This document shows, piece by piece, positions 12,067 through 19,935 of a stretch of 64,000 nt of DNA. Both the position numbers and the translations under genes were made by a program. This DNA is from Candidatus Bathycorpusculum sp. Its GTDB lineage: Archaea; Thermoproteota; Bathyarchaeia; Bathyarchaeales; Bathycorpusculaceae. The stretch lies in contig WRJX01000105.1 of assembly GCA_009778385.1 (NCBI GenBank), positions 145,053 to 209,052 on the forward strand, written 5' to 3'. The notes beneath the pieces are model-generated. The model had not been told where the DNA came from. It made no database searches and saw nothing but the letters and a program-made list of their open reading frames with translations. Within the stretch, counting starts at the first letter, position 1, and every line of letters starts with the position of its first letter.

Positions 12067-12194
12067 TGGCGCCGGGGAAGGGACTCGAACCCCTGCAGGC
12101 ACGAAACCTACCAGCTATCTTGCTGTTTTTTGGCCAAGCCCACTTTTCCTTTAAGATCTCGAGGCTGGCGCGATAACCACTCCGCCACCCCGGC
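12067..12194 (-). tRNA. tRNA-Ser(CGA), class II, with probable intron at 37/38 and genomically encoded CCA
   Basis: Minus strand: GCCGGGG...CCCCGGC-G-CCA acceptor, GGCGGAGTGGTTATCGCGCC D-arm, anticodon stem CCAGC/GCTGG with loop CTCGAG-[about 41 nt]-A, long variable arm AGGT..GCCT, T-arm AGGGG-TTCGAGT-CCCCT. Intron ends ATCTT/AAGAT are complementary. Confidence 0.9.
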
Positions 12195-15221: not shown

Positions 15222-16457
15222 TTATAAGGAATAGTTTTTTTTCGAAATACGTGGTTTATAATCCATTATACGTTCGAATCTTACGTCGGCACCAAAAACA
15301 TCACGTATTAAGGTTCTGGAAATTTCAAGACGAATTTTTTTAGTTCTTCCGTAACGCCCCATGCTTACAACCTTGGCGTTAACAAGACCCATTGAATCTA
15401 ACTCATTAACTAGACTGCCTAAACGTCGCTGGGTTAGAAGACCAGCCCCAAATTCACCACAAAGCTCATTATAAACATCATAAATTTCACCAGTGGTTGC
15501 ATTTGACTTGTTAAGGTGATAAACGCTCAACAACACCAATTTTGAATGTAGCGTCAAGTTTTTGAGAGCTTCAACAACACGATTATGTTCAATATGTTTT
15601 TCAGCTTGATATACATGTTCTTCAGTGATATTTTTTGCTTCTTGACGTTCAGCTACTTCTCCTGCAACACGTAGCAAATCTAATGCACGACGTGCATCCC
15701 CATGTTCTGCGGCTGCAAGAGCTGAACAAATACTTAAAGCAGAATCTGTCAAAGCACCTTCTTGAAAAGAAAGCTTTGAACGTTCAAACAAAATATTTCT
15801 CAGTTCACCCGCATCATAGGGACGAAAAACTAGTTCTTCTTCACTTAAAGAGCTAAAGACCCTTGGGTCAAGAAACTCTTTAAGACGTAAATCGTTAGAA
15901 ATTCCAATTATAGAAACTTTACTTTTTACGAGCGTTTCATTGATTCGAGTTAACTCGTACATGAAAGCATCACCCTTTTCTTTAATTAAAGCGTCAACCT
16001 CATCGAGTACAATTATGAAAAGAATTCGTGAGGTATCAAGACTGGCACGAAATCTATCAAAAACTTCTTCCACGGATAAACCAGTGAAGGGTATGGACAT
16101 ACCTACACTTTGACTTAAACTTGCAAAAACACGATATTCGGAACCGGTCATACGGCAGTTTATGTAACAGAATTTTACTTGTGCACCATACTGTTTTGCT
16201 TTTGCTTCTAAATGACTTAAGACATATTTTGTTACGGCGGTTTTGCCAGTTCCAGTTTTTCCGTAAATGAAAATGTTTGAACATCTAGCATCCTTGAGAA
16301 CTGGGGCAACTCTTTCACCTAGAAGGCGTATTTGGTCTTCTCTATGGGGTAATTTGTCAGGTATATAGTCGTGTCTGAGTACTTCTCTGTCTCTGAAGAG
16401 ATTTATTCGATTAACAAAACTGTCGAATACATCATCAAGTACATTTGTATTTACCAT
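15222..16457 (-). CDS. cdc6: Orc1/Cdc6 replication initiator
   Basis: YIPDKLPHREDQIRLLGERVAPVL, IFIYGKTGTGKTAVTKYV (Walker A), LFIIVLDEVDALI (Walker B), GDARRALDLLRVAGE, C-terminal wHTH. Confidence 0.96.
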   Translation of the reverse strand: MVNTNVLDDVFDSFVNRINLFRDREVLRHDYIPDKLPHREDQIRLLGERVAPVLKDARCSNIFIYGKTGTGKTAVTKYVLSHLEAKAKQYGAQVKFCYINCRMTGSEYRVFASLSQSVGMSIPFTGLSVEEVFDRFRASLDTSRILFIIVLDEVDALIKEKGDAFMYELTRINETLVKSKVSIIGISNDLRLKEFLDPRVFSSLSEEELVFRPYDAGELRNILFERSKLSFQEGALTDSALSICSALAAAEHGDARRALDLLRVAGEVAERQEAKNITEEHVYQAEKHIEHNRVVEALKNLTLHSKLVLLSVYHLNKSNATTGEIYDVYNELCGEFGAGLLTQRRLGSLVNELDSMGLVNAKVVSMGRYGRTKKIRLEISRTLIRDVFGADVRFERIMDYKPRISKKNYSL

Positions 16458-16600: not shown

Positions 16601-16625
16601 ACACACCCCAAAATTTCCACTGGAC
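16601..16625 (-). promoter_or_regulatory. ORB1, origin recognition box
   Basis: Minus strand GTCCAGTGGAAATTTTGGGGTGTGT; matches the archaeal ORB layout (dyad TCCAGTGGAAA followed by a GGGG G-string). Confidence 0.85.
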
Positions 16626-16718
16626 AAAAAACAAAAAAATTAATAAAAATATAATATATATTAAATTATAATTATATACTCTGGGAGATAAATTAGTTCT
16701 AAGTATATTAATCATTGT

Positions 16719-16787: not shown

Positions 16788-16812
16788 CTCGAGCGGAAAC
16801 CAAGGGGTGTGC
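16788..16812 (+). promoter_or_regulatory. ORB2, origin recognition box
   Basis: CTCGAGCGGAAACCAAGGGGTGTGC; aligns without gaps to ORB1 and ORB3. Confidence 0.82.
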
Positions 16813-16944
16813 CTGTAAACCGCTAAAATTTGCTATAAGTCCATTAAAAAACCCATAATTTTTCCATGAATATTAATTTTCTTTTTCTATTTTATTTTGT
16901 GGGTATTAAACGGTTTCCAAAGTATGATAATATGATTTTATAGC

Positions 16945-17247
16945 TTCACAAAACTGTGAAGTATGTGTGAAACTGTGATGTGAAATCTTTATTTTAAGCT
17001 CTATTTCCATTAATTCATATTTAATTTGCTTATTTATTGTGAATAACACACCCCTATGCTTCTACTGGAAAACACAAACAGAGCAAAGAATGATTTTTTT
17101 TTCACATTCTGTTTTTGTGTGAAGCTTGTAAAATCATTAACAATGAAATTTTTGTCTAAAAAGAGATTTAAAGCTTATTTTAGACTTTTCACATTGTGTG
17201 TATTCACCATAACAGCTATAAGCTGTGACGTAATAGAATTGTGAACA
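16945..17247. repeat. Cluster A of TGTGAA/TTCACA repeats
   Basis: About eleven TGTGA/TCACA in about 300 bp, including TTCACA-AAAC-TGTGAA (16945-16960) and TTCACA-N11-TGTGAA (17101-17123). Confidence 0.8.
17046..17070 (-). promoter_or_regulatory. ORB3, origin recognition box
   Basis: Minus strand TTCCAGTAGAAGCATAGGGGTGTGT; aligns without gaps to ORB1 and ORB2. Confidence 0.82.
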
Positions 17248-17265
17248 GACACCAAGGTAACTAGA

Positions 17266-17706
17266 ATGCCAGCACGTAAAATGCGTGTGGAGATATTCGA
17301 TAATGACGGCAACCGATACACCGTCGCATTCGAGGGACAAGTAACACGTGACAAAGCTCTACGCATAATGGATCTTGTTGAAATGCTAGGTGGTATTCCA
17401 AATGGGGGTCAATCAACAAGCAGTTCAAACAGTGTTCTTCCAAGTGTAACTTCTCGTTTTGAAAAAGTCCAAATAGTTATTCAGAAAAGTTTTCCATTAA
17501 TCTGGTTTGTGTCTAAAGATATTCAATCGGTTTATGAGCAGGAACTTAAGGAGCCCATCAGTTTAAGTACAGTCTCAACATACTTATCAAGAATGGTGGG
17601 TAAAGGTTTGCTTATAAGAACAGGTGTAGGAAACAATATCAAATACAAATCAACATCAAACTTACCGCAAACAGCAATAAAACAACAAATAAAAAACAAT
17701 TACTAA
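17266..17706 (+). CDS. wHTH DNA-binding protein, uncharacterised, origin-proximal
   Basis: N-terminal domain KMRVEIFDNDGNRYTVAFEGQVTRDKALRIMDLVEMLGG plus C-terminal helix-turn-helix/wing (SLSTVSTYLSRMVGKGLLIRTGVGNNIKYKST). Confidence 0.8.
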   Translation: MPARKMRVEIFDNDGNRYTVAFEGQVTRDKALRIMDLVEMLGGIPNGGQSTSSSNSVLPSVTSRFEKVQIVIQKSFPLIWFVSKDIQSVYEQELKEPISLSTVSTYLSRMVGKGLLIRTGVGNNIKYKSTSNLPQTAIKQQIKNNY

Positions 17707-17727
17707 CTTTTCAACTCTTAACAATAT

Positions 17728-17769
17728 TGTGAACAAAATTTTTACTTCACAATTTCATAAGTTGTGAAC
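17728..17769. repeat. Cluster B of TTGTGAA/TTCACAA repeats
   Basis: TTGTGAA...TTCACAA...TTGTGAA within about 42 bp downstream of the wHTH gene. Confidence 0.7.
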
Positions 17770-17782
17770 CAGTTATGGCATG

Positions 17783-18610
17783 TTATGTTTGGGGCGCGCT
17801 GGGGTCTTCTTTCTTTAAAAACTTTTCCATTTCCTTCTTAACACTATACCTAAAAGGAATTTTACCCTCTCCTCGTTCAAGGTATCCTTCCTCATAGAGT
17901 TTCTTCATCAATCGTGCTGTATGCTCCCTACTAAGGTTAACTCGCTCTTTAATTTCAGGAGCAGTCTTTGACCCTTCAGAAGATAACATTTCCAGCACTG
18001 CAACCTCGGTACTGGTTAATGAGGCTAAAGCTTTATCACGCTTAATAGGCACAACTGGTAACATCTGCTCAAACTTAATCTCAGGCGGTATCAACGAGAT
18101 TTTTTGTATTTGCTCCTCAAACACACTGATTTTGTTCTTAAGCGTTTCTTGAGTTGCTTCAATGTCTTTTATTTTAATATCCAACCCTGACAGAGAAGAT
18201 GATAAACTACTGCTGTTTTGGGTTAAACTGTTAAGTTGACTTATTTGTGTCTCAAGCTGATTTTTCTGGTTTTCAATAATGTTTCTTTGATTTTCAATGC
18301 TTCTTTTTTGATCTTCAAAATTGCTAAGTTGGCTCTCAACGGGTGAAATTCTTTTCTCAATGGTGTCTATTTTTCTTAGTCCGGTATCAGATTTTGCTAG
18401 ACTTCCTTCAACTTTAAACGCTATTTGTTCAAGTCTTTCCGATTCACGTTTAAGTTCGCGGTTAAAACTTAGTACAATATCTTCAACTGCATCACGGGCT
18501 TTTTCATACTCTTTTTGTGCTTGACGTATTCTGCTATAATATCCAGTAGATGCGACAGCTGTGGCTACTAGTAAGACACCCATTAATACTGGTAATATAA
18601 TTTCACTCAA
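17783..18610 (-). CDS. Membrane-anchored coiled-coil protein with C-terminal wHTH
   Basis: N-terminal TM helix (IILPVLMGVLLVATAVASTGYY), long Q/N/S-rich coiled coil, C-terminal wHTH (LTSTEVAVLEMLSSEGSKTAPEIKERVNLSREHTARLMKKLYEEGYLERGEGKIPFRYSV). Confidence 0.85.
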   Translation of the reverse strand: MSEIILPVLMGVLLVATAVASTGYYSRIRQAQKEYEKARDAVEDIVLSFNRELKRESERLEQIAFKVEGSLAKSDTGLRKIDTIEKRISPVESQLSNFEDQKRSIENQRNIIENQKNQLETQISQLNSLTQNSSSLSSSLSGLDIKIKDIEATQETLKNKISVFEEQIQKISLIPPEIKFEQMLPVVPIKRDKALASLTSTEVAVLEMLSSEGSKTAPEIKERVNLSREHTARLMKKLYEEGYLERGEGKIPFRYSVKKEMEKFLKKEDPSAPQT

Positions 18611-18624
18611 GTTTCCACCTCAAT

Positions 18625-18772
18625 ATGTGATGTACTTGTGATTTAACTCGTGATTTAACGTGTTGCATCACACATCACAGTTTCTGTAACTCTTTTAAGC
18701 CTTACGGTAATTTCCATGGAAAGTAATGCATGACATCACACATCACAAAATCACACGGTCACAAATCACATT
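18625..18772. repeat. Cluster C of TGTGAT/ATCACA repeats
   Basis: About nine TGTGA/TCACA, including ATCACACATCACAAAATCACACGGTCACAAATCACA, directly upstream of the coiled-coil wHTH gene. Confidence 0.82.
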
Positions 18773-18897
18773 TCCACGATTTCAATGTATCCCAAATAAG
18801 CTTAAATTAACCTTTATTTTATTATTACTCCTTAGTTTATCATGAAAAAAATTGTTGAGAACTAGTGAAAAAAGAAGCTCAAATTAGCCTTATTTTA

Positions 18898-18918
18898 TGT
18901 GATTTGTGACGTCACATA
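18898..18918. repeat. Cluster D: TGTGATTTGTGACGTCACA
   Basis: Two TGTGA and one TCACA, with GTGACGTCAC dyad, at the 3' end of the 18912 ORF. Confidence 0.65.
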
Positions 18919-19427
18919 GGCTGATTTGATGGGCCAGAAAGCCGTTTTAGGCTTGTTTCTAGCTCTTCTCTGATGATTTCTATCAATTTTACATGGTCTT
19001 CTAGCTCTTCCTGTTTTCCGGGTACGTCTTGGTGGGCCTCCACATAATCTCTTAGTTTATTTGCTATTTCGAGATATGGGTCCAGAGTTGAGCTTTCAAA
19101 CACACCTAAATATCCTAAGAGTAGTACAGTGTAAATGGATTTTATTACATTTTCTTTAGACTGCGCTAAAGTCCTATTAAATGAACCCCGGCTTATTTTA
19201 GACTTTGTTAGTCGTAATTTGGCTTTCTCATCGTATTTTAGCTGTTTGCCAGTTATATTTTCGGCTAATATGTCAATTAGCAATGTCTCAAGTTGCGTTT
19301 TGGTTAATTGGCTATTTTTTGCCAGTATTTTTACAATGGGGTCATTTAGGGCTCCATTTAGCCATGCTGTTACGCCATCTTTTAGCTTCAAAACTTGCTT
19401 CTCCTTCTTTATGTTGAATGGATACAA
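18912..19427 (-). CDS. Uncharacterised 171 aa basic/helical protein, possible HTH
   Basis: TTG-start ORF; segment NSQLTKTQLETLLIDILAENITGKQLKYDEKAKLRLTKSKISRGSFNRTLAQSKENVI suggests a DNA-binding helical domain; no family recognised. Confidence 0.65.
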   Translation of the reverse strand: MYPFNIKKEKQVLKLKDGVTAWLNGALNDPIVKILAKNSQLTKTQLETLLIDILAENITGKQLKYDEKAKLRLTKSKISRGSFNRTLAQSKENVIKSIYTVLLLGYLGVFESSTLDPYLEIANKLRDYVEAHQDVPGKQEELEDHVKLIEIIREELETSLKRLSGPSNQPM

Positions 19428-19784
19428 CTTTGTATACTGCCAACACTTTTATAGCTTATTACCCCTAAAATAACTGAAAATTGACCACTAAATCGCCATA
19501 AATTAACGTTTTTATTTAATATAACTGCATTATTATGTTAATTAGCAGCTTATCGGGTAGAATTAGTGCTAAAAAAGTGTTTAAAGGTTAATTTGGAGTT
19601 ATCAATTTAAATTACTATAGTTGTTTTTTGTCTTTTTCTAAACTTTTATGCTAATTACTAATTCCCCCTTTAGGGTTTATTTGCTTGTTTGCTGTTTATT
19701 TTTTCAGCTCAAAACACATTTTCTTTCTCATTATCATTACATTTTTCCTTACTACTTTCAATATAAACGACAATAAATTGACAT

Positions 19785-19935
19785 TGTGATGTCACCTAAT
19801 CACACATAATCACATGTGAATCACACAGAAATCACGTGTTTTTCCATGAAACAGTATGATATCACAGGTTGTGATGGGTTTGTGATGCAAGTGTGATTGT
19901 GATGTGATTTGTGATTAGCGTTATCACAATTACAA
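19785..19935. repeat. Cluster E of TGTGAT/ATCACA repeats (densest)
   Basis: About thirteen TGTGA/TCACA in about 150 bp, e.g. GTTGTGATGGGTTTGTGATGCAAGTGTGATTGTGATGTGATTTGTGAT. Confidence 0.85.

Follow-up and report, generated by a model that had tools for sequence, protein, structure and literature searches.

What do three uncharacterized genes, set among dense clusters of the pentamer TGTGA and its complement TCACA, do beside an archaeal replication initiator gene? The question arises from a 64,000-nucleotide stretch of the genome of Candidatus Bathycorpusculum sp. (contig WRJX01000105.1, positions 145,053 to 209,052; hereafter the window), in which the three genes, here g1, g2 and g3, lie between orc1/cdc6 and a nitrilase gene. 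A first-pass annotation made from the letters alone had read this layout as an origin- or centromere-associated DNA-binding system, with a simple local regulon as its conservative alternative. We find that the pentamers form two related families of site, that their paired forms are concentrated at this one locus, and that each family segregates with one of two winged helix-turn-helix (wHTH) proteins. The reading that we tentatively favor is a dedicated origin-locus system: g1 would act on the origin, a membrane-anchored g2 would tether the origin region, and both would autoregulate.

Confinement of the sites

An exact count gives 39 pentamers at 16946–19928, at the places where the first-pass annotation had put roughly that number, compared with 99 across the remaining 61 kb of the window. 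Non-coding DNA holds 38 of them, largely as had been claimed; the departure is at 18912–18916, where sites overlap the last codons of g3. Dinucleotide shuffles of the locus's non-coding DNA (1712 bp) yield a mean of 5.5 pentamers and a maximum of 14 (n = 1000) versus the 38 observed, so the supposition that chance would supply far fewer was correct. A pattern search of the host genome (2.18 Mb in 105 contigs) for TGTGA-N0-15-TGTGA-N0-15-TGTGA returned 10 matches, all 10 within this ~3-kb locus, and the reversed-pattern control returned 0; the motif density seen here is not that of most intergenic regions of the genome.

The same picture emerges from paired sites in other genomes. The pair TGTGAYNTGTGAY, typical of the Y family described below, has 47 matches across 16 genomes, 44 of them at g2–g3; the reversed control has 13 matches in the same genomes. 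The exceptions outside g2–g3 are G005:C13, G056:C1 and G312:1088060, the last being 1.4 kb upstream of g3. The palindrome TTCACANNNNTGTGAA (TTCACA-N4-TGTGAA), which belongs to the A family, occurs once each, upstream of g1, in 9 of 16 Bathyarchaeia genomes, and its exact form has no match in the other seven genomes searched. At least for paired sites, these are not the sites of a genome-wide regulon; a DNA-binding protein with all of its recognizable sites in its own locus must act at that locus. Separately, the host genome contains a second TTCACA-N4-TGTGAA palindrome outside the origin locus (G000:C77:21463-21478), a possible extra target of g1.

Two site families and two wHTH proteins

Gene g1 (17266–17706, + strand) encodes a soluble protein of 146 residues with a β-β-α N-terminal domain followed by a wHTH (AlphaFold2 (AF2) model; predicted local distance difference test (pLDDT) score, 73). 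It is single-copy in 53 of 61 relatives, and the structures that its model matches are generic wHTH proteins (Fur, RosR, MecI, AspA), none below an E-value of 0.001. Gene g2 (17783–18610, − strand) encodes 275 residues that comprise a predicted N-terminal transmembrane (TM) helix, a coiled coil and a C-terminal MarR-like wHTH (Pfam MarR, 2.7e-7). Few residues precede the TM helix, and there is no extracellular sensor domain. The recognition-helix core of g2, L226-REHT-R-LMK-Y239, is invariant across 30 homologues, and the hydrophobic N-terminus is kept in most distant homologues.

The base that follows TGTGA divides the sites: TGTGAA (the A family) lies around g1 and inside the origin, and TGTGAY (the Y family, in which Y is T or C) lies around g2 and g3. 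Within the window this base is A at 12 of 14 sites on the g1 side versus 1 of 25 on the g2/g3 side (Fisher p = 2.8e-7). Across 48 genomes, every one of which keeps the rule, the corresponding counts are 275/293 (94%) versus 23/654 (3.5%), and in the named Bathyarchaeota loci, a set that partly overlaps with the 48 genomes, 401/426 versus 21/591. The genomes compared are related and hence are not independent trials; the within-window Fisher test is unaffected by this. Viewed by segment, A follows TGTGA in 87–98% of cases upstream of g1 and at the g1|g2 junction, and T or C in 90–97% around g2/g3.

The families also differ in spacing. A-family sites prefer TCACA-N4-TGTGA and direct repeats near 10–11 and 15–16 bp, and Y-family sites prefer 7-bp direct repeats, TGTGA-N2-TCACA, 11-bp spacing and TGTGAYRTCACA palindromes. 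Sites of the CRP-like type, TGTGA-N6-TCACA, were considered and rejected: the N6 spacing is not preferred, whereas the N4 and N2 pairings and the 7- and 11-bp direct repeats are. The first-pass annotation had treated the repeats as a single motif; this does not hold. A single motif read by a single protein is rejected, since the identity of the sixth base sorts the sites cleanly both by where they lie and by which genes are present.

Gene content supplies a second line of evidence. The genomes without g1 (G078 and G373) have Y-type sites only, at g2 (8 and 5, respectively). Among those without g2, G253 and G198 have A-type sites only, at g1 (2 and 4), G086 has three A and one Y, and G101, whose sole g2 match is interrupted by five stops and is not credible, has three A sites. 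Because genomes that lack g1 keep only Y and those that lack g2 keep only, or nearly only, A, the best assignment, which we predict with considerable confidence, is that g1 reads TGTGAA and g2 reads TGTGAY.

A-type sites in the origin region

The initiator gene orc1/cdc6 (15222–16457, − strand; Pfam Cdc6_C, 2.7e-25, and Cdc6_lid, 5.6e-25) is syntenic in the order. Pattern scans between it and g1 identified elements that resemble origin recognition boxes (ORBs): element 1 at 16602–16624 (− strand; TCCAGTGGAAATTTTGGGGTGTG), element 2 at 16789–16811 (+ strand; TCGAGCGGAAACCAAGGGGTGTG) and a degenerate element 3 at 17049–17072 (− strand; ...AGTAGAAGCATAGGGGTG...), of which 17049–17066 matches the pattern and the rest was recognized by eye. 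An AT-rich stretch at about 16625–16700 separates elements 1 and 2, so that the features of an orc1/cdc6-type origin, ORB-like elements and an AT-rich region adjoining the initiator gene, are both present; the cumulative GC skew of the window has its minimum (turn) at 16–20 kb. Because of the ORB-like elements, the AT-rich stretch and the skew turn, we infer that the locus is a putative active replication origin.

The A-type array upstream of g1 lies in this region (16946–17244; 11 sites, 9 of them TGTGAA) at a conserved position, and its core is the palindrome TTCACA-AAAC-TGTGAA at 16945–16960. In 51 genomes, A sites fall at −340 to −300, −240, −160 and −60 to −20 from g1; the ORB-like elements of relatives peak at −480/−460 from the same gene, and the A-type sites interleave with ORB elements at fixed distances. 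The gap between orc1 and g1 is near 800 bp in most genomes. By site count and base class, three more A-type sites lie where the 3′ ends of g1 and g2 converge (17728–17767), a junction that in 35 relatives carries 11.8 sites/kb, 92% of them A.

Y-type arrays and the g3 promoter

Y-type sites flank the predicted g2 core promoter: downstream of it are four exact sites (18626–18679), with a 7-bp-spaced pair at 18667–18679, and upstream of it are five sites at 7- or 8-bp spacing (18736–18770), in a layout shared with relatives. Another group is found at the 3′ end of g3 (18898–18916; TGTGATTTGTGACGTCACA), in a segment that averages 27 sites/kb over 50 genomes. A distal array (19785–19928) has 13 sites, 12 of the Y type and one of the A type, some 350 bp upstream of g3; in 33 of 50 genomes, at least three sites stand at the same place, 300–560 bp upstream of that gene. 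There is no evident promoter or gene at the distal array in the window, and no conserved gene between it and g3 in the relatives aligned. That the 350-bp stretch ahead of g3 might hold an RNA gene was considered and rejected: the stretch has diverged outside the sites, and an Rfam scan of the window and of the relatives scanned found tRNAs elsewhere only. In three relatives that belong to different families (L066, L072 and L085), TGTGA sites about 600–770 bp upstream of g3 are identically spaced (14, 16, 99); they seem to be a conserved feature distinct from the array, with no Rfam or tRNA match, and because of the identical spacing we gave them no weight as array evidence.

Gene g3 (18912–19427, − strand) encodes a conserved, all-helical protein, 171 residues as first called, with a probable helix-turn-helix (HTH) around an HTH-like conserved center, SRGxFNRTLxQ. 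It has no Pfam or NCBIfam match, and its AF2 model (pLDDT 66) has no useful structural match in the PDB; profiles of g3 and of g1 likewise found nothing useful among PDB sequences. One match per genome was obtained in 161 of 400 sampled Thermoproteota genomes, and the nearest relatives are Bathyarchaeota metagenome-assembled genomes (MAGs), the closest being Candidatus Bathycorpusculum and related bins, which we take to be termite-gut bins. A contig assigned to a Bacteroidetes MAG (L099; WQTS01000042.1) also carries a Bathyarchaeia g3, at 84% identity, a case of probable binning contamination. Translation probably starts not at the TTG first assigned, at 19427, but farther downstream, near 19391, where the conserved protein begins; the extra N-terminus that the TTG implies is overlapped by an operator-like palindrome at the g3 promoter (19422–19436, − strand; TATACAAAGTTGTAT), which pattern search and alignment revealed. 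Most of the genomes checked, very distant lineages included, have this palindrome, TATACA-N4-TGTATA, at the g3 promoter, and it is rare elsewhere in each genome. We predict that it is probably the g3 operator, by which g3 would be autoregulated.

Conservation of the module

The conserved order is PhoU-like / DP1 (PolD small subunit) / orc1 / g1 / g2 / g3 / nitrilase / NAD synthase / Elf1-like / GGGPS / DP2, and it is kept over most of the ~50 genomes of the order (orc1 and nitrilase were checked by Pfam, and the other neighbors were assigned by reading their sequences). The synteny beside orc1/cdc6 that the first-pass annotation had raised is thus real: orc1-g1-g2-g3 is kept across the order and far beyond the genus, and the association of genes with repeats persists in ~50 relatives. 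Farther afield, ten genomes resembling those of ammonia-oxidizing archaea (AOA-like; L214–L219 and L223–L226) keep this order for g1, g2, g3 and GGGPS-like genes, with orc1 adjoining in most of those in which the contig extends that far. They have 4–11 TGTGA-type sites per 280 bp upstream of g2, mostly Y-type, with the array at g2|g3. These carriers presumably include cultivable ammonia oxidizers such as Nitrosopumilus.

Fourteen of the 52 relatives have a longer g1 operon, which runs on through genes for a NurA-like protein and a HerA-family ATPase (PF01935) and ends against g2. This pair, patchy across the order, lies between g1 and g2 at L043:5368-7936 and also in L044, L045, L060, L069, L072, L074–L076, L078, L080, L083, L085, L087, L220 and L222. 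CedD and HerA models score about equally on the HerA-like protein, which is far below the equivalog thresholds, and the NurA match of its partner is below cut-off. The species of the window lacks the pair, and no NurA was found in its genome either by the Pfam model, which could miss a NurA as divergent as the module's (it also missed that of G048), or by a search with the module protein itself. Elsewhere in the window, a tRNA gene on the − strand spans 125 bases (12070–12194) and so probably contains an intron.

Possible functions of the module

The confinement of the sites, arrays away from promoters, fixed geometry within the origin and a membrane-anchored reader lead us to suggest a cis-acting origin-locus system. 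The soluble g1 would bind TGTGAA sites (core TTCACA-N4-TGTGAA) amid the ORB elements and help to build or restrain the initiation complex. The coiled-coil wHTH protein g2 would bind TGTGAY sites around g2 and g3. Given the membrane helix of this protein, its occupied Y array would hold origin-proximal DNA at the membrane, and the Y sites at g2 would also render that gene self-limiting. We see g3 as a candidate third DNA-binding protein, probably autoregulated via TATACA-N4-TGTATA. With somewhat more reserve we extend this proposal to an origin-anchoring system of Bathyarchaeia and Nitrososphaeria-type archaea, in which a membrane wHTH protein grips an array and a soluble partner reads a sister motif in the origin, thereby coupling initiation to chromosome positioning or segregation, with a HerA-family translocase included in some lineages. 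The general origin-associated idea of the first-pass annotation survives, on the grounds of confinement, ORB interleaving, fixed positions and synteny; its treatment of the repeats as one motif does not.

A local autoregulatory circuit would account for many of the same observations: g1 and g2 would each repress the gene that encodes it, and perhaps g3 as well, and would play no structural part at the origin. In that case g2 would be an ArnR-type one-component regulator bound to the membrane, and the synteny with orc1 would reflect co-expression with replication genes. We consider this rather doubtful, yet rank it close behind anchoring because Y pairs bracket the predicted g2 core promoter; in addition, A sites reach −20 of g1, sites are almost absent outside the locus, and membrane-bound HTH transcription factors are known in Sulfolobus (ArnR/ArnR1, as cited in PMC13286277). 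However, the sites are too many for such a circuit, and conserved ones lie far from promoters (the convergent 3′ ends, the g3 3′ end, and 350 bp upstream of g3). Moreover, the g3 promoter has its own, different operator-like palindrome, regulators without any other target would have no evident purpose, and g2 has no extracellular sensor domain. The simple local regulon offered by the first-pass annotation is thereby weakened, with the reservation that the part of the Y array astride the g2 core promoter fits autoregulation too.

Control of initiation is an unlikely alternative account. The arrays would then restrain or time the origin, much as DnaA-box clusters or seqA/datA-type elements do in bacteria; g1 and g2 would be competitors of Orc1 or of MCM loading, and membrane attachment would be a by-product of this regulation. 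Such control would explain A-type sites among ORBs at fixed positions and the nearly constant orc1–g1 distance, and Sulfolobus UBP/ucm demonstrates that archaeal origins need DNA-binding factors other than Orc1 (PMC12141716); but the larger Y array is 1.5–3 kb from the ORBs and tied to g2/g3 instead of the origin core, and g2–g3 persists away from orc1 in Aigarchaeota-like genomes. That the genes are a mobile element or defense island beside the origin by chance is highly improbable: the HerA-family ATPase and NurA-like partner found between g1 and g2 in some relatives would point that way, HerA being known from defense systems, but the module is single-copy and strictly syntenic across the order and in distant classes, and g1–g3 have only weak coiled-coil or generic HTH matches in PADLOC, which amount to no match with a known defense family.

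Several observations weigh against membrane anchoring at the origin, the reading that we favor. In nearly all genomes shown, Y-type pairs flank the predicted g2 core promoter (TTTAAGG), and sites lie in the g2 5′ region, as operators would. A g2 homologue without the hydrophobic N-terminus occurs in three class-level genomes (f16), and no ATPase motor is universal to the module. The AOA-like genomes have g1 with hardly any A-type sites, and therefore the g1 half of the system is not universal; the Aigarchaeota-like genomes (e.g., G076) keep g2–g3, but not beside orc1. The co-loss argument is based on two genomes that lack g1 and three or four that lack g2, and the GC skew of a complete genome (G048) is noisy and uninformative.

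Comparison with known systems

Our search of the open-access literature, with subscription papers on thaumarchaeal origins outside its scope, found no description of this module. The first-pass annotation had recognized no named system with such a layout; SegAB, AspA-ParBA, UBP/ucm, ArnR and HerA-NurA each fail a defining test or differ in architecture. The novelty that we have in mind is that of the combination of features; if the module is instead an autoregulatory circuit, it falls within a known kind.

AspA of the Sulfolobus plasmid pNOB8, part of AspA-ParB-ParA, is a wHTH protein that recognizes a palindrome situated upstream of the gene encoding it and can spread along the DNA (PMC5120986). 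The g1 model has a wHTH fold, and a palindrome lies upstream of g1, which the protein may bind and along which it may spread; AspA (5k5q) is among the generic wHTH matches of the g1 model (E 0.02–0.05), no closer than Fur, RosR or MecI. In contrast to AspA-ParBA, the module has no ParB or ParA gene among its conserved neighbors, and it is chromosomal and origin-linked, with two site families and a membrane-anchored second binder. In the ucm/UBP system of Sulfolobus, a factor other than Orc1 binds a conserved origin motif (PMC12141716); UBP has 111 residues, is described as having a saddle and stirrup loops, and has more than 300 sites in the genome, whereas g1 and g2 belong to the wHTH class and their paired sites are confined to one locus.

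ArnR and ArnR1 are archaeal HTH proteins with transmembrane helices; ArnR has its HTH at the N-terminus and acts on archaellum promoters. The g2 chain likewise combines a hydrophobic N-terminus with a MarR-like wHTH, but in the order N-terminal TM helix, coiled coil, C-terminal wHTH, and its predicted targets, counted as paired TGTGAY sites, lie almost only at its own origin-linked locus (44 of 47 at g2–g3 in 16 genomes). As for HerA-NurA, the likeness is the pair between g1 and g2 in 14/52 relatives; that pair is divergent in both members, absent from the window species and, where present, linked to g1 and g2.

In the open-access literature searched, SegAB alone among archaeal systems for chromosome segregation has experimental support. 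The SegB motif TCTAGASTCTAGA has 0 matches in the window at ≤2 mismatches, and no SegA-like (ParA-like) ATPase is among the module's conserved neighbors. The likeness is one of layout: in SegAB, the sites of the DNA-binding protein cluster close to the locus that encodes it and close to oriC1 (PMC12284271), and the module's sites also cluster by their own locus and the origin. Here, the gene set is ancient and single-copy, has cis sites of its own and is tied to an origin, and two proteins with half-sites that differ by one base, locus-confined paired sites and a membrane anchor make for testable predictions; anchoring, if true, would be a direct physical link of an archaeal origin to the membrane.

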